Positions 3,564 through 47,158 of a stretch of 62,482 nucleotides of DNA are shown here, piece after piece. This DNA is from a virus. The notes beneath the pieces were generated by a model. That model was not told where the DNA came from. It was given only the letters and a program-made list of their open reading frames with translations, and did not search any database. A program made the translations under genes and the position numbers. The stretch is from positions 1-62,482 of the IMG/VR virus record IMGVR_UViG_3300044970_000783; one strand, given 5' to 3'. How positions within the stretch are numbered: the stretch's first letter is position 1; each line of letters opens with the position of its first letter.

Positions 3564-4865
3564 TTATCTACTTACTTCTTCCCAGTCTATGGAAGCATAT
3601 GCACCTGAAAGTCCCCCCACTGCGTCTATAGCCATTTCCACTACAAACTCATAAGGAACACCTGCTAGTGCATTTCTCTCAAGCTGATTGGAAAAAAGAG
3701 CTTCTTTAAGAATGTTTATACTGGGTGATCCTTGATTAGAAGAGTTTACAAACCCACTAGCTAAAATTCTACCACCAGTAGCACCTGTTCCTGTAGTATT
3801 ATATTCTACAGCAGAATCGCCACCAGCACTGAACCAAGTTCCTCCTGAGATTGCTACATTACCATTCATTACTCTCCACTGATAGTTCTTTCCATTACCA
3901 AGTCCTATAAGAGAAATAGCTGTTGCTATTACGATAGCATCTAGTCTTGTAGTTTTAAGTCTTATACCTACAATTGGATAATATGTTCCTGCTACAGTAA
4001 ATATTCTTGGAGCAGTGATAGATGTACCAACAGATTGCTGTTTACCTCTTAATTCATACCCTCCTTCAGAAATGACAGTAGAACAAATTTGCTTCAAAGT
4101 AGAAGCTGAGTCTGTACCAGTATCATTAAATATCTCATAACGTAGCGGTAATGAAGCGGTTGTTATATATGTAGAAGCTATAATGTTAGCATGGTTGAAT
4201 GTATGACAAAGAATAAACTGTCCATTAATCACAAAACCCATTCTAACTGATCCTACTCCTAACCACTCAAGATCCATCCAATAAATCTGTGCTTTAGTTA
4301 GATCAAGTGTAAGTCCTGAAGGTCCAGTACCATCAAGTTTATCACCATTCCAATCTGCTTGAGGTACAGGTGTTTCTACTAAAGAACCTGTCACCATACT
4401 TCTTTTTACAAAAGCTATATCAGAATTTGCTTGCTCCAAATAAAACCCATTCTCATCCCCATAATATCCAACACGTTGTGTAAGTCCTGCTTTAGGAGCA
4501 TTCATCACAAATGTATTCATTACAAGAAGTGACTTACCTGGTTGATAAGCAAACACTTTAATTGTTTCTCTTAGCACTGAAGACCCGGATGCTGCTGTAA
4601 CATTTAAGTCTACAAGTCCCTGATTTGCATTAAATACAGCTGTCCCACTAGTAGATGTTTCTGTTGCCCAAAGGTCATTATCATCAAACCTATGACTAGA
4701 ATCAAATAATGTAAAAGGAGAAGATGTTCTTAGTCTACCAAAACTATCTTGTCCAGTGGAAGGTGCAAACACAATTGGTTGTGGTTCTCCAATACTAGTT
4801 GTAATACAACAAACTCTGTTATATATCTTAGATAGAATAGGTTCTATTTGTGATGAATATATCAT
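3564..4865 (-). CDS. Putative virion surface or head-fibre protein, 433 aa
   Basis: A beta-rich, Gly/Ser/Thr-rich protein without enzyme motifs. Blocks such as FGRLRTSSPFTLFDSSHRFD and LDGTGPSGLTLDL resemble a family I recall from large marine and Bacteroidota phages, annotated only as structural. The N-terminal helix (residues 1-20) may be the particle-binding part. It starts at ATG 4865 and overlaps the portal stop by four bases (ATGA), so it is probably translationally coupled to the portal gene. A receptor-binding or decoration role is an inference. Confidence 0.55.
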   Translation of the reverse strand: MIYSSQIEPILSKIYNRVCCITTSIGEPQPIVFAPSTGQDSFGRLRTSSPFTLFDSSHRFDDNDLWATETSTSGTAVFNANQGLVDLNVTAASGSSVLRETIKVFAYQPGKSLLVMNTFVMNAPKAGLTQRVGYYGDENGFYLEQANSDIAFVKRSMVTGSLVETPVPQADWNGDKLDGTGPSGLTLDLTKAQIYWMDLEWLGVGSVRMGFVINGQFILCHTFNHANIIASTYITTASLPLRYEIFNDTGTDSASTLKQICSTVISEGGYELRGKQQSVGTSITAPRIFTVAGTYYPIVGIRLKTTRLDAIVIATAISLIGLGNGKNYQWRVMNGNVAISGGTWFSAGGDSAVEYNTTGTGATGGRILASGFVNSSNQGSPSINILKEALFSNQLERNALAGVPYEFVVEMAIDAVGGLSGAYASIDWEEVSR

Positions 4866-16381: not shown

Positions 16382-16591
16382 ATGTATAAGATGTTGTTTG
16401 TGTTATTAGGGGTGTTATTAGCCTCTTGTAGCACCCGTCAAGCACCCGCTGAATGTTGTAAATCCTGGCACTACCAAGTCACACTTGAAGATAGTGCTAT
16501 GGTGATATCTGACCACGGACGTCATGTAGCCACTGTCCCATATGAAAAGACAGGAGTGTTAGATAGCGTGTTTATGGCAGATAATGAATGA
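16382..16591 (+). CDS. Small phage lipoprotein, 69 aa
   Basis: A typical lipoprotein signal: MYKMLFVLLGVLLASC with a lipobox LASC, so Cys16 would be lipidated. The mature part of 54 residues has a CC pair and an acidic, beta-rich sequence. Phage lipoproteins made early often block receptors against superinfection; that role is inferred. Start at ATG 16382, with an alternative at 16391. Bacteroidota may display such proteins on the cell surface. Confidence 0.7.
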   Translation: MYKMLFVLLGVLLASCSTRQAPAECCKSWHYQVTLEDSAMVISDHGRHVATVPYEKTGVLDSVFMADNE

Positions 16592-16610
16592 TAGTATACC
16601 CACTGTGTCC

Positions 16611-16637
16611 GGAGACGCAAGTGCCTTCTCCTTTTTT
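16611..16637 (+). terminator. Weak terminator
   Basis: GGAGA pairs with TCTCC around an 11-base loop, followed by six T. Ends the lipoprotein unit. Confidence 0.55.
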
Positions 16638-16841
16638 AAGGACATAGTTAGGGGTGATACCAGACTACTGGTTTGTCTGTGAAGGTAGTATATCCTTTTA
16701 TAAGGAGATTCACAGAACTTTTAATGCGTCATAATCTGTTTCCCAAGGACAGACAGTGGTAATTAGGTCTGCATATATGGTGACATATGTGTGTTTAGCA
16801 TACCATTGAACGCAGAGGGGAAGTAATGTAAATTCTATCAT
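16638..16841 (+). other. Structured non-coding stretch before second lipoprotein
   Basis: No gene seen. TCTGTGAA (16676-16683) pairs perfectly with TTCACAGA (16709-16716) around an inner hairpin TCCTT-TTAT-AAGGA (16693-16706). Just before it CCAG-ACTA-CTGG forms another hairpin. It may be a leader RNA or a small RNA. Confidence 0.4.
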
Positions 16842-16979
16842 ATGAATAAGATCCCTGGAGCGTACATCCTTATGTACATCGCATTTCTACTCACTGTAGC
16901 ATCCTTGTTCTCCTCCTGTGCCACTAATGGATATGGATGTAAAGGACGCTCAAAGATTATTACTCGCGTAAAGCAGTAA
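16842..16979 (+). CDS. Small lipoprotein, 45 aa
   Basis: Hand translation from ATG 16842 to TAA 16979 gives MNKIPGAY, a hydrophobic stretch, and the lipobox-like LFSSC at residues 22-26, then a short basic tail with YGCKGRSK. The mature peptide is only about 20 residues. I recall similar tiny lipoproteins in Bacteroidota with a YGC motif, without function. A terminator follows. Confidence 0.6.
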   Translation: MNKIPGAYILMYIAFLLTVASLFSSCATNGYGCKGRSKIITRVKQ

Positions 16980-16999
16980 TAGGTAAGCATAAGCAATAC

Positions 17000-17029
17000 G
17001 GGGGGTGTCTCTACACTCCCCTTTTATTT
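17000..17029 (+). terminator. Rho-independent terminator
   Basis: A 9-bp G/C-rich stem (17000-17008 with 17013-17021, one G-T pair), CTCT loop, then TTTTATTT. Confidence 0.8.
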
Positions 17030-17065
17030 GTATTTTTTAATCCACCATAAAACCCGTTAAAAATC

Positions 17066-17407
17066 ATGGGAAGACGTAAAAAATATCAGTATTACACTGA
17101 TAGTCAGCTAAAAGAGTTAGCTACACTCTCTACCAGAAAAGAACTTAGATCCTTTTCTCGGACAACGAAGCACAGTTATGCCTCTGTATACGCTTATTGG
17201 CGTAAACTAACAGGTAAAAGATTAACAGACATAGATCCGACTGTTAAACTTGGTAAACCCCTAGGATCTAAAACTGTGAGAGCAAACGATGTGTACACCA
17301 CACCAACTGTTATTGAAACAGAAGGTAACACCATCTATGTTCCCATCAAAAGCATTTCTATTATGAACTACGCAGATGGAGTGCAGAGATTGGTGATCAC
17401 ATATTAA
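17066..17407 (+). CDS. Putative DNA-binding protein, 113 aa
   Basis: The N-terminus is basic (MGRRKKYQYYTDSQLKELA) and continues with a helix-turn-helix-like stretch (TRKELRSFSRTTKHSYASVY) reminiscent of Myb/SANT or homing-nuclease DNA-binding helices. The C-terminus is beta-rich. Its TAA stop is shared with the first two bases of tRNA-like element A. It begins a cluster of three regulator-like genes separated by tRNA-like elements. Confidence 0.6.
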   Translation: MGRRKKYQYYTDSQLKELATLSTRKELRSFSRTTKHSYASVYAYWRKLTGKRLTDIDPTVKLGKPLGSKTVRANDVYTTPTVIETEGNTIYVPIKSISIMNYADGVQRLVITY

Positions 17408-17449
17408 CCAGTATGGTAGCAAGGAGAGGTTCGATTCCTCTCCCTGGTT
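17406..17449 (+). ncRNA. Mini tRNA-like element A
   Basis: AACCAG (17406-17411) pairs with CTGGTT (17444-17449). It stacks on a perfect 7-bp T arm GGAGAGG-TTCGATT-CCTCTCC (17423-17443). The 11 bases between the strands (TATGGTAGCAA) replace the D and anticodon arms but keep ATGGT, like the D-loop GG that contacts the T loop. There is no anticodon and no encoded CCA. The stacked helix of 13 bp is close to the 12 bp of a tRNA acceptor-T domain, the minimal substrate of RNase P. Confidence 0.7.
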
Positions 17450-17486
17450 CTGAAACCCTTATTTTAAACCCTAAATTCATCTTTGT

Positions 17487-18383
17487 ATGAAAAACAAAAA
17501 AAAGAATGACAGTAACAAACTCACTGTCAAAAGAAAAGCTCTAGTAATAGAGAAAGGTAAAATGCGAGTCACACCTGATGAACCTCAAACCGAGAACCAA
17601 TCATCAAAAACAAAAGGTCAGCGTAACACCTACAGTAAAAAGATGCGCGATTTATTTAATGTAAAGATCCTTGAGAAAGTAGCGAAGATTGGTTTTAAGT
17701 TCTTAGAAGGTATCAACCGTGCCATTATTCCTGCTCAAGTGACGCTTCTTGCAACATCTATACAACTAATGGGGATCATCCGTCCTGTTGTAGTTGCATA
17801 TCTTGATTTTGCTGGTCTTAAAGGTTGGTACATTATTGATGGTCAACACCTCTATTTTGCTCTTCTTCGTCTAAATATGGATATTCCATATGTAGAGATA
17901 GAAATCAAAAACGAAGAAGAATTAGTAGAGAAAACAGCATTGTTAAACTCAAGTTCTAAGTCATGGCAGTTAAAAGACTATATCCAAATATGGTCATTTA
18001 TCCGTCCTGATTATAAGAAACTATCTCACTACTTTAATCAGTATGATCTTGAAGTGCAAACTATTGCTTCTATTCTTAGTGGTAGAAATGCTGGTAGTGG
18101 TGGAGTAAACTCGGTTATCAAGAAGGGTACATTTAAAGTGAAAAACGAAGATAGAGCAGTACAAATCTTAGATTTTGTAACTGATGTATTGAACATTGTA
18201 CCTCGTATGGACCGTATTTCTAATAAGTTCTTTGTAGGTGCTTATGTAGAATACGTAACCCAAAACTTTTCCACTTATAATCACACAAGATTTTGTAACT
18301 ATCTGAAAAAGAATAGTGAAAAACTCACATTTGTTAATGGAGATAAAGATAACATCTTTAACTTTTTTAACGAGTGTGCTTAA
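17487..18383 (+). CDS. ParB-like protein, 298 aa
   Basis: Residues 80-145 match the ParB/Srx fold: a strand leading to GWYIIDGQHLYFALLRLN and DIPYVEIEI, the IDGQHR-type signature of ParB-like proteins. The N-terminal 50 residues are strongly basic and probably disordered. The C-terminal half is helical. ParB-like domains bind CTP and DNA or act as nucleases; which applies here is open. It is preceded by element A and its stop codon overlaps element B. Confidence 0.7.
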   Translation: MKNKKKNDSNKLTVKRKALVIEKGKMRVTPDEPQTENQSSKTKGQRNTYSKKMRDLFNVKILEKVAKIGFKFLEGINRAIIPAQVTLLATSIQLMGIIRPVVVAYLDFAGLKGWYIIDGQHLYFALLRLNMDIPYVEIEIKNEEELVEKTALLNSSSKSWQLKDYIQIWSFIRPDYKKLSHYFNQYDLEVQTIASILSGRNAGSGGVNSVIKKGTFKVKNEDRAVQILDFVTDVLNIVPRMDRISNKFFVGAYVEYVTQNFSTYNHTRFCNYLKKNSEKLTFVNGDKDNIFNFFNECA

Positions 18384-18424
18384 CTAGAATGGTTCTAGAG
18401 GGGGTTCGATTCCCCCTCCTAGTT
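18382..18424 (+). ncRNA. Mini tRNA-like element B
   Basis: AACTAG (18382-18387) pairs with CTAGTT (18419-18424), stacked on T arm GAGGGGG-TTCGATT-CCCCCTC (18398-18418). The connecting 10 bases AATGGTTCTA again contain ATGGT. Compared with element A the stems differ but stay paired (CCAG/CTGG versus CTAG/CTAG), which is compensatory change. An alternative hairpin CTAGAA-TGG-TTCTAG could compete. The first two bases are the AA of the preceding TAA stop. Confidence 0.7.
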
Positions 18425-18439
18425 CTAAAACTTAAATCT

Positions 18440-18838
18440 ATGGATATTGAAACCCTAAAATCTGAATTAATTGAAAAATTAAAAGCTGAAGTACAAGCTA
18501 ATACATCAGAAAAAGAAATTCTTTACAAGCTTTTCTTTGACATGAAAAAAGATGTAACAGAATTAAAACGCATGTTTGTAAAAATACTACAGGATGAGCT
18601 AGAAAAAAAAGAGATAGACACTTTTAAATATGAACCATTAAAAGTACCTTCTGAAGAATATAAGAATAACCGATATGAAGACGATGAAGAAAATATTCTT
18701 CCTATGATAGTACTGGAAAAAGGATCTATAATTAATGCTTTAAGAAGACATAAAGGACATAGAGATAATGCTGCTGAAGCTCTTGGTATTAGTGCTCGTA
18801 CTTTATATCGTAAAATAAGAGAATACGATATTGAATAA
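18440..18838 (+). CDS. Fis-type helix-turn-helix protein, 132 aa
   Basis: Residues 91-132 match the Fis/NtrC C-terminal HTH: LEKGSIINALRRHKGHRDNA, then AAEALGISARTLYRKIREY. The N-terminal 60 residues form a charged coiled coil, suggesting a dimer or higher oligomer. I chose ATG 18440 because the longer frame from 18374 would run through element B. A DNA-bending or transcription-activator role is likely. Element C follows six bases after the stop. Confidence 0.75.
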   Translation: MDIETLKSELIEKLKAEVQANTSEKEILYKLFFDMKKDVTELKRMFVKILQDELEKKEIDTFKYEPLKVPSEEYKNNRYEDDEENILPMIVLEKGSIINALRRHKGHRDNAAEALGISARTLYRKIREYDIE

Positions 18839-18843
18839 TAATT

Positions 18844-18885
18844 TATCAGCATGGTGTTAAGGGTGGTTCGATTCCACCCCTGATG
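18844..18885 (+). ncRNA. Mini tRNA-like element C
   Basis: TATCAG (18844-18849) pairs with CTGATG (18880-18885; one T-G pair), stacked on T arm GGGTGG-TTCGATT-CCACCC (18861-18879). The connector CATGGTGTTAA carries the same ATGGT. Total helix 12 bp. Unlike A and B it does not overlap a stop codon and continues into a structured region ending at a terminator. Confidence 0.65.
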
Positions 18886-19042
18886 CAAAGATGTAAAACA
18901 CACATCCTAGAACGAAACGTAGAAAAACCGGAACCGTATTGGCGGTCACTCTGATTTAGCTTAGTACAGAATACTAGTTTCTGGAACGCGTCAGCTCATC
19001 CCGTATAGTCGCTCCTCTAATTTCTACTCAAGTAGTTCTAAC
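18886..19042 (+). ncRNA. Structured RNA candidate downstream of element C
   Basis: No gene. Hairpins include GATGT/ACATC (near 18890-18906), TAGTA-CAGAA-TACTA (near 18963-18977) and CTACT/AGTAG (near 19024-19035). TAGAAC (18908-18913) can pair with GTTCTA (19035-19040). Blocks AACCGTAT, TGGCGGTCAC, TTCTGGAAC-GTC and CTAACGCAG recur in the same order at 23360-23528. Together with element C and the terminator this looks like a discrete RNA of about 230 bases. Confidence 0.5.
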
Positions 19043-19076
19043 GCAGGAGGTAATGTAATTGTCTCCTGCTTTTTTT
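19043..19076 (+). terminator. Rho-independent terminator
   Basis: GCAGGAG pairs with CTCCTGC (19063-19069), followed by seven T. Confidence 0.85.
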
Positions 19077-19096
19077 GTAATTAATAACCTAAACAT

Positions 19097-19405
19097 ATGG
19101 AAACCCAACATCAATTCATTCAAAATGCACTATCTGATATGTTAGATAGTACAATCACTGGCACTATTGAAGTGCTAAAAAACATTAGTGATGCAAGAAT
19201 CCCAGCACCTGTTAGAGTGATGCTATTAGAGCGTCTATCTGATAGCTGGACTAAGTCACCTGTTACATTAAATGTACCAAAGTCTCTCAAGGACTTGTGC
19301 AAGTATGCACACAACAACGCTGACTTTTCTATAAAGTGCGGTGTAGTGACAAGCTTCTTACTCACTGTTAAAAATGGTGTATCCTATGGAAAAAACAACA
19401 ATTAG
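19097..19405 (+). CDS. Hypothetical protein, 102 aa
   Basis: A helical protein with DMLDSTITGTIEVLKNI and ARIPAPVRVMLLERLSDSW. It overlaps the start of the MoxR-like ATPase gene and is probably coupled to it, so it may belong to the same chaperone system. No motif recognised. Confidence 0.6.
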   Translation: METQHQFIQNALSDMLDSTITGTIEVLKNISDARIPAPVRVMLLERLSDSWTKSPVTLNVPKSLKDLCKYAHNNADFSIKCGVVTSFLLTVKNGVSYGKNNN

Positions 19406-23280: not shown

Positions 23281-23359
23281 TAGTCAGGTGGCGGAATTGT
23301 TTTCTCAAGGATTGTTTTTCCGTGGTGGTACTTCATAGGTTCGAATCCTGTCCTGACTA
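23281..23359 (+). ncRNA. tRNA-like domain D (possible degenerate tRNA-Leu)
   Basis: TAGTCAGG (23281-23288) pairs with CCTGACTA (23352-23359). The T arm is ATAGG-TTCGAAT-CCTGT (23335-23351), giving the normal tRNA acceptor-T length. After position 8 comes GGCGGAATTG, as in tRNA-Leu D arms, but no proper D stem follows. CGGAA (23292-23296) instead pairs with TTCCG (23318-23322). No convincing anticodon loop is seen, so decoding function is doubtful. After A23359 the sequence is CAC, not CCA. Confidence 0.6.
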
Positions 23360-25926: not shown

Positions 25927-26281
25927 GGGGGTGCATGGATTTGACAGCTATGCAGTCGGTATGTACACATGCAGTGGGATGGTTCTCCAACCACTTTAAT
26001 CTCGGAATCAACTAATAAACGCAATGACTCAGTCTGAGCGTGTAGCAGAAGGTGAAGCAATCCTTGCTTCTATCTTCGGTGAAGTAGCAGTAGCTGCCTA
26101 ACCTACGGGGTAGTCATACCTGGCAACAGAAACTGACAAGCAGTTTTCCTAGTAGTCATAAAACTAGGTGGTGGATGCGACCTCTTGGTTCCCTATACTG
26201 ATCAGCTTGCAGATCTAAGCATGTGAGACGTTGTATGTACAGGTTCTTAGTTGGACACGGGTTCGATTCCCGTCACCTCCA
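25927..26281 (+). ncRNA. ssrA: tmRNA (trans-translation rescue RNA)
   Basis: The 5' end GGGGGTGCATGGATTTGACA and the 3' end ACGGGTTCGATTCCCGTCACC fold into the tRNA-like domain: GGGGGTG pairs with CACCTCC, T arm ACGGG-TTCGATT-CCCGT. CTAAGCATGTGAGACG near the 3' end matches the conserved E. coli segment CTAAGCATGTAGTACCG. A tag frame from about GCA 26021 to TAA 26099-26101 ends in EVAVAA, a normal degradation signal. CCA is not encoded. The tag of about 26 residues is long; its resume codon is inferred. tmRNA frees stalled ribosomes with SmpB; no smpB is seen here. Confidence 0.92.
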
Positions 26282-26310
26282 CTGTTTTTTTTCATATGAC
26301 AAGCAATCAA

Positions 26311-45223: not shown

Positions 45224-47158
45224 ATGAAAAGTCACTGGATCATGGACTACGAAACAATATGCAACTGTTTCGTAGCTGTGTTTGAACATTATAAGGAATC
45301 TAAAAGACGTGTATTCGTCGTAAATAAGCTAAGTTCCAGGTCTCAATTTGATGACCTGGTTTCTTTTCTTATGGAGAATGTAGAACGCGACGAGTGGCAT
45401 ATCTCCTTTAATGGTCTTCATTTTGACTCTCAAATCACTCAATACATTCTAACACATTATGAAGAATGGAAAGATCTATCTAATGATGAGATAGCTTCCC
45501 TTATTTATAATTATGCACAGAAGGTAATTAGTAGAGAAAGAGATCAACCTCCAGATTTTCCAGAGTGGAAGCTGTTCATTAAACAGATTGATTTATTTAA
45601 AATGAATCACTGGGATAATGCAGCTAAAAGATCTAGTCTAAAGTGGATACAATTCTCTATGGATTGGGATAATGTGGAAGATATGCCACATGCCCACTAT
45701 AAACTTGTAGATGATATACCCACATTAGAAAAGATCATTAAATATTGTATAAATGACGTTGCGTCTACAAAAGAAATCTTCAAGAGAAGTAGTGAACAGT
45801 TAGCTCTTCGCAAAAGTCTCACTGAAGAATACGGTATAAACTTGTTCTCAGCATCAGAAACAAAGATTGCAAGAGAACTATTTGCACACTTTCTTAGCAA
45901 ACAAACTGGTATCTCTAAATCAGATTTAAAACAACTTAGAACTTTTAGAACACATGTTGCATTAGAGGAATGTATACTTCCATACATAAACTTTGATGTT
46001 CCCTGTTTTAAAGAGTTACATAAGTTTTTTAGAGGTAAGGTGGTAACAGAAACGAAAGGTAGCTTAAACCATATGGTCAAGTATAAGAACATGGAAATAT
46101 ACTATGGACTGGGTGGTGTACATGCTGCTAGAGAATCTGGTATTTATGAAGCTAAAGATGGATATACAATTATGACATCGGATGTCACATCATTCTATCC
46201 TAATCTAGCTATTAGAAATAAGTTAGCACCAGCACATCTAGATCAAAACCAGTTTTGCAATCTGTATGAATGGTTCTTTGAGGAAAGAAAGAAATATCCT
46301 AAGTCTGATCCTAAAAACTATGTCTTTAAAATTATTCTTAATGCTACATACGGATTAAGTAATGATGAGAACAGTTTCCTGTATGATCCGCAACTCACTA
46401 TGAGTATTACTATCAACGGTCAGCTTCTTCTAACTAAACTATTAGAGATGCTTGTTGAAAGAATACCTGGTGCTATACCGATAATGGTGAATACAGATGG
46501 TCTCGAAGTTATGATTCCTAAGACTTTCAAGGATAAGTATAAGGAGATATGTGAAGAATGGGAAAGACTTACAAGTCTACAGCTAGAACACGATGAGTAT
46601 AAGAAAATTATATTGGCAGATGTAAATAACTACATTGCTATGTATGATAATCCTAAAAAAGAACCAAAGTGTAAAGGTAGATTTGAATGGAAAGACCAGA
46701 CAGAAAAGAAGGTGGCAATACTACATAAGAATAAATCTTTCCTTATTATTCCTAAAGCAATCTATCACTATTTTGTTTACGGAACAGATCCTAAAGATTA
46801 CCTAAAAAGTAATAGAGATATCTATGACTATTGCGGTGGTATAAAAGCAAAAGGTGACTGGTCTATAGTTGCTGTAGAAGTAGATAAGGGTGTGATGAAA
46901 GAAACAGAACTACAGAAAACCAATCGCTATTTTATATCTAATAAAGGTATTAAACTCTTTAGAAGAAATAAAGTGGACAAAAGAGAGATACAAGTTGACT
47001 CCGGTAGATGGACGCACACTATTTACAATCGAGCATCTGCTAAAAGCTTCGATGAACTGGATGTAAATGAAGATTATTATCTTGAACAGATACATAAGGA
47101 GATACACAACATCGATAAACAAATCAAAAGAAAATTTACTCAACTAGAATTATTTTAA
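45224..47158 (+). CDS. Family B DNA polymerase, 644 aa
   Basis: Exonuclease motifs: MDYET (D8, E10), SFNGLHFD (N63, D68) and YCINDV (D178). YYGLGGVH resembles the YxGG motif. Polymerase motif A SDVTSFYPN (D320), motif B KIILNATYG (K369, N373, Y376), motif C VNTDGLEV, where the usual first Asp is Asn but the catalytic second Asp (D425) is kept. The length is short but complete. The C-terminal region is basic. Proofreading replicase of the phage. Confidence 0.88.
   Translation: MKSHWIMDYETICNCFVAVFEHYKESKRRVFVVNKLSSRSQFDDLVSFLMENVERDEWHISFNGLHFDSQITQYILTHYEEWKDLSNDEIASLIYNYAQKVISRERDQPPDFPEWKLFIKQIDLFKMNHWDNAAKRSSLKWIQFSMDWDNVEDMPHAHYKLVDDIPTLEKIIKYCINDVASTKEIFKRSSEQLALRKSLTEEYGINLFSASETKIARELFAHFLSKQTGISKSDLKQLRTFRTHVALEECILPYINFDVPCFKELHKFFRGKVVTETKGSLNHMVKYKNMEIYYGLGGVHAARESGIYEAKDGYTIMTSDVTSFYPNLAIRNKLAPAHLDQNQFCNLYEWFFEERKKYPKSDPKNYVFKIILNATYGLSNDENSFLYDPQLTMSITINGQLLLTKLLEMLVERIPGAIPIMVNTDGLEVMIPKTFKDKYKEICEEWERLTSLQLEHDEYKKIILADVNNYIAMYDNPKKEPKCKGRFEWKDQTEKKVAILHKNKSFLIIPKAIYHYFVYGTDPKDYLKSNRDIYDYCGGIKAKGDWSIVAVEVDKGVMKETELQKTNRYFISNKGIKLFRRNKVDKREIQVDSGRWTHTIYNRASAKSFDELDVNEDYYLEQIHKEIHNIDKQIKRKFTQLELF

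Follow-up and report, generated by a model that had tools for sequence, protein, structure and literature searches.

What do three elements shaped like part of a transfer RNA (tRNA), each without an anticodon, do between the genes of a phage? The question is raised by the virus record IMGVR_UViG_3300044970_000783, whose complete 62,482-base sequence is the window analysed here. The window carries three elements of 42-44 nucleotides (nt), E1, E2 and E3, in each of which an acceptor-like stem is combined with a T arm. The elements almost certainly represent a conserved RNA structure, and they have counterparts in many other viral contigs. They probably act as punctuation in messenger RNA (mRNA), at which host tRNA-processing enzymes (RNase P and probably RNase Z) would cut the phage transcript.

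Structure of the three elements in the window

E1, E2 and E3 share one architecture (Table 1). The acceptor strands enclose a connector with the core N-A-T-G-G-T-N' and a T arm closed by the loop TTCGATT in all three; on direct reading, the positions, loop and ATGGT connector are those reported by the first-pass annotation, an earlier description of this DNA. The total helix spans 13, 13 and 12 base pairs (bp) in E1, E2 and E3, respectively, as that annotation had also recorded (12-13 bp), and a U-G pair is the outermost pair of E3. By sequence and pairing, the elements contain the acceptor stem, the T arm with a TTCGANT loop and the D-loop GG of tRNA (RF00005), and the acceptor would stack on the T arm. 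A 3' CCA is not encoded in E1-E3.

The core GGTTCGATTCC is matched exactly four times in the window, in E1, E2, E3 and the T arm of the phage transfer-messenger RNA (tmRNA), and six times when up to one mismatch is allowed, compared with a mean of 0.40 in shuffled sequences. A covariance model, R1, was built from 12 elements of other contigs with the window copies excluded, and the window was searched with filters off. R1 recovers E2, E3 and E1 with expect (E) values of 8e-10, 1.3e-9 and 1.8e-7, respectively. No fourth copy was found by this search of the 62 kilobases (kb), and the next match is the T arm of the tmRNA (E 0.046).

Neither ARAGORN nor cmscan reports a tRNA at E1-E3, even at E up to 1. 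No Rfam 15 family matches E1-E3 at E up to 1 over positions 16500-19150; the sole match in this interval is to a microRNA model (E 0.4), within the ParB-like gene and on the opposite strand. Stability alone places the elements about two standard deviations above shuffled sequences (z -2.05, -2.36 and -1.90 for E1, E2 and E3 folded singly), and the acceptor stem is present in the minimum-free-energy fold of E1.

Table 1. Features of the predicted transcription unit and the tmRNA, in window coordinates
Feature	Position	Strand	Sequence or assignment	Parts or remarks
Terminator-like hairpin	17000-17021	+	intrinsic-terminator-like	would close the preceding transcript
Gene A	17066-17407	+	113 amino acids (aa)	no Pfam or PHROG match
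E1	17406-17449	+	AACCAG-tatggtagcaa-GGAGAGG-TTCGATT-CCTCTCC-CTGGTT	acceptor 17406-17411/17444-17449; mini D arm 17412-17418; T stem 17423-17429/17437-17443; T loop 17430-17436
Gene B	17487-18383	+	ParB-like, 298 aa	PHROG 12305, E 1.6e-16
E2	18382-18424	+	AACTAG-aatggttcta-GAGGGGG-TTCGATT-CCCCCTC-CTAGTT	acceptor 18382-18387/18419-18424; mini D arm 18388-18394; T stem 18398-18404/18412-18418; T loop 18405-18411
Gene C	18440-18838	+	132 aa, C-terminal Fis-type helix-turn-helix (HTH)	Pfam HTH_8, E 4e-13
E3	18844-18885	+	TATCAG-catggtgttaa-GGGTGG-TTCGATT-CCACCC-CTGATG	acceptor 18844-18849/18880-18885; mini D arm 18850-18856; T stem 18861-18866/18874-18879; T loop 18867-18873
Tail	18886-19069	+	non-coding 3' tail or small RNA	ends in intrinsic-terminator-like hairpin 19043-19069
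Phage tmRNA	25927-26284		Rfam, 87.5 bits	tag AMTQSERVAEGEAILASIFGEVAVAA

Pairing and covariation across viral contigs

Viral contigs were scanned with the pattern ATGGTN{2,12}GGTTCGATTCC, which returned at least 120 stretches, with frequencies that do not estimate abundance. The pattern fixes part of the T arm and ATGGT, the conservation of which is thus no evidence, and leaves free the stems beyond GG/CC as well as the N/N' positions. Pairing was scored in a 12-pair geometry that left just two things variable: where acceptor and T stem divide, and whether a base precedes ATGGT. Among the matches listed, 47 of 129 distinct pattern matches form 11-12 of the 12 Watson-Crick pairs, compared with expectations of 2.1 when the 5' strands are shuffled and 0.6 when the 3' strands are shuffled. 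At ten or more pairs, 57 of the listed matches in 51 loci are obtained, compared with 12.1 and 1.3 in the same two shuffles. Chance hairpins are ruled out as an explanation by these shuffled-strand controls. Misread genuine tRNAs were also rejected; neither ARAGORN nor cmscan calls a tRNA there.

In a scan that required pairing, one of 65 candidates overlapped an ARAGORN tRNA and was removed before counting. The other 64 elements, including E1-E3, have helices of 10-14 bp (62 of them 11-13 bp), and pre-filtering by pairing (score of at least 11) sets the lower bound of this range. The connector is 10-11 nt long in 44 of the 64 elements, and the break between acceptor and T stem shifts (6+6, 7+5, 5+7 and so on). 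In shape, family members combine an acceptor of 5-8 bp with a T stem of 4-7 bp; together the two stems mostly come to 11-13 bp, within a length of 41-44 bases.

Covariation was measured in 12 ungapped members. In these members, which were pre-selected for pairing, 96.4% of the cells are paired, compared with 58.7% in shuffles. The covariation score is 0.956, compared with 0.179 in shuffles and at most 0.213 when partners are slid by 1-3 columns. Eleven of 14 pairs are changed on both sides, a count equalled in 34 of 500 shuffles. The earlier observation that the stems differ between copies but remain paired is true of the window, and the wider family agrees with it.

A mini D arm and the flanks of the elements

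The two bases that flank ATGGT were free in the scan. Among the matches listed, these bases are A-T in 29, T-A in 11, C-G in 6, G-C in 2 and other combinations in 13 of 61 elements, a set likewise pre-filtered by pairing score, which amounts to Watson-Crick complementarity in 48 of 61 through four pair types. The shuffle mean is 21.7, and 0 of 10,000 shuffles reach 48, a frequency that is not a strict probability because copies within one array are related. We read the connector as a tiny hairpin, the mini D arm (N-A-Y-G-G-T-N'), with Y-G-G at its tip as the counterpart of the tRNA D loop. Its two guanines could dock on the T loop and form the tRNA elbow. The first-pass annotation had likened ATGGT to the D-loop guanines; the guanines are present, but the connector appears to be more than a linker, given its covarying arm (48/61).

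Directly 3' of the helix, the motif [N]C[ATG]A occurs in 24 of 47 elements, compared with 4 of 47 at a control position, and [N]CCA occurs in one of 47; these counts retain eight helices that were extended only to short lengths (4-7 bp). CCA blocks RNase Z. The 3' flank would leave one C able to pair with RNase P RNA, yet no CCA to block RNase Z. The flanks are often structured: among the 60-mers beside 47 elements, z falls below -2 for 12 on the downstream side and 10 on the upstream side, compared with 1 of 44 at 200-260 nt downstream.

Placement between genes

Gene context was taken from open reading frame (ORF) calls, not from a gene finder. For 29 of the 57 elements with at least ten pairs, an ORF on the same strand stops within -8 to +20 nt of the helix start; the opposite strand yields 2 of 57, and random positions 6.9%. 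In a wider interval (-8 to +60 nt), the corresponding values are 34 of 57, 11 of 57 and 15.3%. This sense-strand position after stop codons fits processing sites in a polycistronic mRNA, the first of the roles proposed by the first-pass annotation, which had also named the putative roles of 5' cap and protein-binding handle.

Arrays in which genes and elements alternate are found at loci L074 (six copies), L094 (four copies), L015 and L060. At each junction of L074, the element is followed by a small repeat-like hairpin, a purine-rich stretch resembling a ribosome-binding site and a start codon, and by eye the order in L094, L060, L009 and L015 is similar. The stems differ among neighbouring copies in L094, L135 and L015 and are repeated in L009, L068 and L083. 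In L095, L026 and L084, the first 6 nt of the helix still belong to the called ORF, and the expected 5' cut would precede the stop. No protein cluster covers more than five element loci as a shared neighbour. Neighbouring genes are varied and include capsid genes, a psbA-like gene and tail-like genes of prophages (psbA, tail and prophage being labels of our own reading).

In the window, E1-E3 are predicted to occupy all three junctions of one transcription unit, in the order gene A, E1, ParB-like gene B, E2, Fis-HTH gene C, E3 and non-coding tail. E1 and E2 share their first helix bases with the TAA stops of gene A (17405-17407) and gene B (18381-18383), respectively, so that the expected 5' cut would fall within the stop codon. 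The stop of gene C ends 5 nt ahead of E3. No leader hairpin is visible by eye after E1 and E2. E3 and the tail folded together give a z of -2.36. Terminator-like sites on both strands of 16400-19300 number seven, compared with a shuffle mean of 1.6.

Distribution in viruses and cellular genomes

R1 matches 41 of 42 virus records with one to six copies each and finds none in the L100 record; nearly all of these records were chosen because elements had already been seen there, and many are fragments. Three to six copies are present in nine of the 42 records, and one or two in 32.

Relatives of the window phage were picked by their DNA polymerase, ParB-like or HTH protein, and 50 of 96 loci, many of them fragments, were searched. 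Four of the 50 carry an element (R1, E <=0.001), two of which are near-identical to the window, and the distribution among these relatives is patchy. Within the 16 loci of ParB-like relatives, R1 copies occur only in the loci of the two contigs near-identical to the window. DNA-level searches of a phage collection with the window stretch, L015, L060 and L068 gave no match. The first-pass annotation had pointed to crAss-like genomes as the place for homologues. Homologues with paired, differing stems are indeed found in other phages, but they are not crAss-specific.

The pattern used on GTDB genomes was stricter and selected for AATGGTT, and its matches were left out of the N/N' test. It returned at least 118 stretches, and 27 of the 118 loci listed pass a strict structure test. 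They include Dysgonomonas, Chryseobacterium, Epilithonimonas, Roseburia, Amycolatopsis and Corynebacterium, metagenome-assembled genomes (MAGs) of Treponema and Nitrosomonas, and a Bathyarchaeota MAG contig with four copies. Eight whole genomes contain at least 1-2 copies each (150 first-look candidates were scored per genome), with pairs 5-6 kb apart. We read these close-set copies as what is expected of prophages.

Alternation with a tRNA gene before the capsid leader of cyanophages

Some elements precede the major capsid gene of marine T7-like phages, and one precedes a psbA-like gene (again our own label). The slot, defined as the stretch before the capsid-gene leader that starts with TTGG, was compared in 21 sequences, including 18 named records; the records are classed as Autographiviridae. 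A T arm with a paired acceptor lies directly before TTGG in 13 of the 21 sequences, as counted by a script that required pairing and had no shuffle control, and P-SSP7, P-SSP2 and P-SSP3 share one form. The S-RIP1 slot, a putative neighbour of the capsid gene, is near the other end of the linear record, and only the TTGG of the leader is seen in L228.

The slot is filled by forms of different size. In NATL1A-7, it is an annotated full tRNA-Gly, which is confirmed by ARAGORN and Rfam. In S-RIP1, a D-like loop and an extra hairpin resembling an anticodon arm precede the T arm. The T-arm loops of P-SSP7, P-SSP2, P-SSP3, P-GSP1, S-CBP3, S-SBP1 and MedDCM-S45-C4 start with TGC, and in six of these seven a small hairpin replaces the D arm, as judged by eye. 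The slots of S-TIP37, L095, L026 and L228 contain mini elements with TTCGATT. Ten acceptors (GAGTA, AACTGA, ACTGAT, GCGGGTA, GCTAAG, GTGAA, AAGTAA, GCTTG, GACTG and TGCCC) each pair with their own 3' strand. The small forms keep the parts that are read by RNase P and RNase Z (acceptor, T arm and elbow) without an anticodon. Since a tRNA in an mRNA leader must be excised, the best account of a smaller tRNA-like form in the same slot is that it directs these cuts too.

R1 was run over nine whole records. It detects S-TIP37 (1.8e-5), the T arm only of S-RIP1 (7.2e-4) and the slot of P-SSP7 and P-SSP2 (0.02), and reports nothing in the whole records of S-SBP1, 9515-10a, S-CBP1 and NATL1A-7. Given these weak or absent scores, the TGC-loop forms rest on the slot comparison. 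R1 also gives weak matches before other genes in P-SSP7 and P-SSP2, and one elsewhere in S-RIP2 (7.7e-4). A literature search for P-SSP7 transcript ends turned up nothing.

Two further RNA features were observed in this region of cyanopodophages. A second unannotated motif before the capsid leader is a hairpin with GGCACCTCAGAGTCGGACC and variable paired flanks (L379, L380, L381, L400, L401, L402, L403 and L406). A mean of 7.0 of 9 flank positions are paired with wobble allowed, compared with 5.2 in shuffles, across at least 115 usable copies in viral contigs; no Rfam match to this motif was found in L379-L381. After the slot, many cyanopodophages (L376-L384, L399-L407) have a structured leader, TTGGC..GGCC..GGATACC..GCCGTC-GACGGTGGGA-AGACCACA, which has no Rfam match in L376-L384.

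Phage identity and other features of the window

The window phage looks mosaic (window 3564-4865, 45224-47158). Its terminase resembles those of uncultured 'cr' phages, which we take to be crAss-like, and of Bacteroides, Flavobacterium and Cellulophaga phages, with a best identity of 25.7%. Proteins of T4-like cyanophages and of phage HMO-2011 share 61% identity with a 433-aa structural protein of the window, and Vibrio phages provide the closest relatives of its DNA polymerase (37%). The 127-kb contig L272 holds the searched 3.2-kb stretch at 100% identity, so that the window may be a fragment.

A tRNA-like gene at 23282-23359, within about 340 nt between called ORFs, scores 27.2 bits against the Rfam gathering value of 29 and is missed by ARAGORN. 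A 44-nt block in a non-coding stretch (16720-16763) is 91% identical to positions 680-723 of L277, a distant relative, and is possibly another conserved RNA.

Discussion

The elements pair and covary, lie on the sense strand, recur across phages and alternate with a tRNA gene in an orthologous slot. Each resembles the top half of a tRNA without the anticodon arm, placed between genes of what would be one transcript, and the enzymes of host tRNA maturation probably mistake it for a precursor tRNA (pre-tRNA). RNase P would cut on the 5' side and RNase Z, or 3' exonucleases, on the 3' side, which would resolve a polycistronic phage mRNA into separate mRNAs. The window unit would yield three single-gene mRNAs and a released non-coding tail. 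The benefit would lie in fixed mRNA ends and separate stability for each gene.

As judged from their predicted fold, the elements have the structure required of RNase P substrates. Model substrates made of acceptor, T stem and T loop are cleaved by RNase P, according to passages of PMC11143913, which agrees with what the first-pass annotation had said of minimal acceptor-T helices. Passages of PMC4810234 describe recognition of the elbow by RNase P, RNase Z and the CCA-adding enzyme and name CCA-less pre-tRNAs as RNase Z substrates. Pairs between C74 and C75 and the Escherichia coli RNase P RNA are named in the title of a reference within PMC11143913.

Several points weigh against this explanation. 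In the minimum-free-energy folds of E2 and E3, the connector replaces the 5' strand as the partner of the 3' acceptor strand, so that the acceptor stem there rests on comparative evidence instead of energy. The ratio of G-U to A-C mismatches, which would mark the transcribed strand, is 8:7 at 11 or more pairs and 15:10 at ten or more, which gives no firm strand sign; it is 40:19 at nine or more pairs, in a set diluted by chance matches. By the 5'-strand shuffle, about 12 of the 57 elements with at least ten pairs are possibly chance, and 28 of the 57 lie outside -8 to +20 nt of a called stop. On the minus strand of L083 (about 940-1780), five or six near-identical copies stand about 120-200 bp apart in non-coding, repetitive, low-complexity DNA. 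No element was found in 46 of the 50 searched relatives. The promoter scan of the window fell below chance (6 sites, compared with 9.3 in shuffles), and the single transcription unit is thus predicted from terminators only. In the cyanophage slot, another hairpin, with the core CACCTCAGAGTCGGA, is present in 8 of 21 sequences; three of the 13 positives (L095, L026 and L228) were included because they bear an element, and the named records give 10 of 18. Finally, CCA-less T4 tRNA precursors are cut better by RNase P once given CCA, as stated in a passage of PMC11143913, and the elements lack CCA. The E2 and E3 folds, the wobble ratios, the stop-distant copies, the T4 data and the eight other hairpins are the reasons for which we call cleavage probable and put it no higher.

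The element might instead stay uncut and, through a compact fold that resists nucleases, stabilise mRNA ends or insulate the translation of neighbouring genes, perhaps by binding a host protein that binds tRNA. Intercistronic placement on the sense strand, structured flanks and the non-tRNA hairpin found in the same cyanophage slot would all suit such a fold. A plain stable hairpin, however, needs neither elbow nucleotides nor a covarying mini D arm, and a real tRNA gene, with which the element interchanges, requires processing. We consider an uncut fold unlikely.

A released RNA of 41-44 nt could also be the product itself, a decoy or sponge that would occupy proteins acting on tRNA (RNase P, RNase Z, TruB, the CCA-adding enzyme or EF-Tu) or tRNA-sensing defences. 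We consider this improbable: the close mimicry of the elbow, the records with three to six copies and the L083 array speak for it, but a decoy does not need placement after stops, most records (many of them fragments) have one or two copies only, and the window copies stand at three junctions of one predicted unit, with the tmRNA T arm as the best other match in 62 kb.

Far less plausible is a site that acts in DNA, either for recombination or integration modelled on tRNA 3' ends or for integron-like joining of cassettes. Attachment sites in tRNA genes resemble the core GGTTCGATTCC, copies lie between successive genes in arrays and their occurrence among relatives is patchy, as such a site would have it. 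Orientation nevertheless follows the genes (29/57 versus 2/57), the mini D arm that covaries is a feature of RNA, and neighbouring stems mostly differ (L094, L135 and L015), though those of L009, L068 and L083 are repeated. Remnants of decaying tRNA genes without present function, an origin that the full tRNA-Gly and smaller forms of the cyanophage slot make possible there, are scarcely credible, as this is contradicted by stems that differ across contigs yet stay paired, and as the decay of a single gene would not be expected to leave arrays in which the geometry is constant and the stems differ.

Punctuation of phage mRNA by these elements would have parallels in known systems. In the punctuation model of mitochondria, RNase P and RNase Z excise tRNAs from between mRNAs, as outlined in PMC8601606. 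The phage elements are likewise tRNA-shaped signals on the sense strand at successive gene junctions (the window, L074, L094, L015 and L060), with cuts expected on both sides. In both E1 and E2, the stop codon of the preceding gene contains the start of the 12-bp helix; the mRNAs of mitochondria, for their part, may finish with an incomplete stop codon. Unlike mitochondrial tRNAs, the phage elements have no anticodon arm and cannot translate, and here we infer the cleavage. In plant mitochondria, t-elements are tRNA-like structures near mRNA ends that serve as processing signals; the proposed use is the same and the hosts differ, and we know of no t-element with a mini D arm and TTCGATT or with a place between successive genes. 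The mascRNA of MALAT1, which is eukaryotic, single-copy and retains a small stem on the anticodon side, also recruits end-processing enzymes through tRNA mimicry. Processing of tRNA-like RNAs by RNase P is stated in general terms for long non-coding RNAs in a passage of PMC4810234. Like the tRNA-like domain of tmRNA, the elements consist of acceptor and T arm without an anticodon arm, and the T loop of the window tmRNA is identical; unlike tmRNA, they have no tag-coding part or pseudoknots, and R1 reaches only E 0.046 on the tmRNA T arm. The early genes of T7 are separated by RNase III sites, intercistronic stem-loops that set phage mRNA ends, from which both the enzyme and the fold proposed here differ.

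No described phage family of this kind was found in Rfam or in a literature search of mostly open papers (subscription papers were mostly, and preprints wholly, outside it), as the first-pass annotation had supposed. The elements would work like tRNA punctuation and t-elements, and the anticodon-less form in phages would be new. A bolder possibility, which we hold to be quite doubtful, is that phages independently evolved tRNA punctuation through a widespread, undescribed family of anticodon-less mini-tRNAs that uses RNase P and RNase Z in very different hosts to make single-gene mRNAs, with a cut inside the stop (UA/A) at some junctions (E1 and E2), after which the messages concerned would require 3' A addition of the mitochondrial kind or rescue by the phage tmRNA.

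If the proposed mechanism is true, phages of several host groups hijack essential enzymes of tRNA maturation for their own mRNAs, a solution familiar from mitochondria and met nowhere for phages in the literature searched. The mechanism would show how the ends of mRNAs could be set for each gene separately in such phages, and the element would be a compact natural processing tag of 41 nt. The cultured phages P-SSP7, S-TIP37 and NATL1A-7 and their relatives allow testing. The capsid-leader slot, in which orthologous positions are taken by a tRNA gene or by smaller tRNA-like forms, offers a view of how tRNA mimics may arise.

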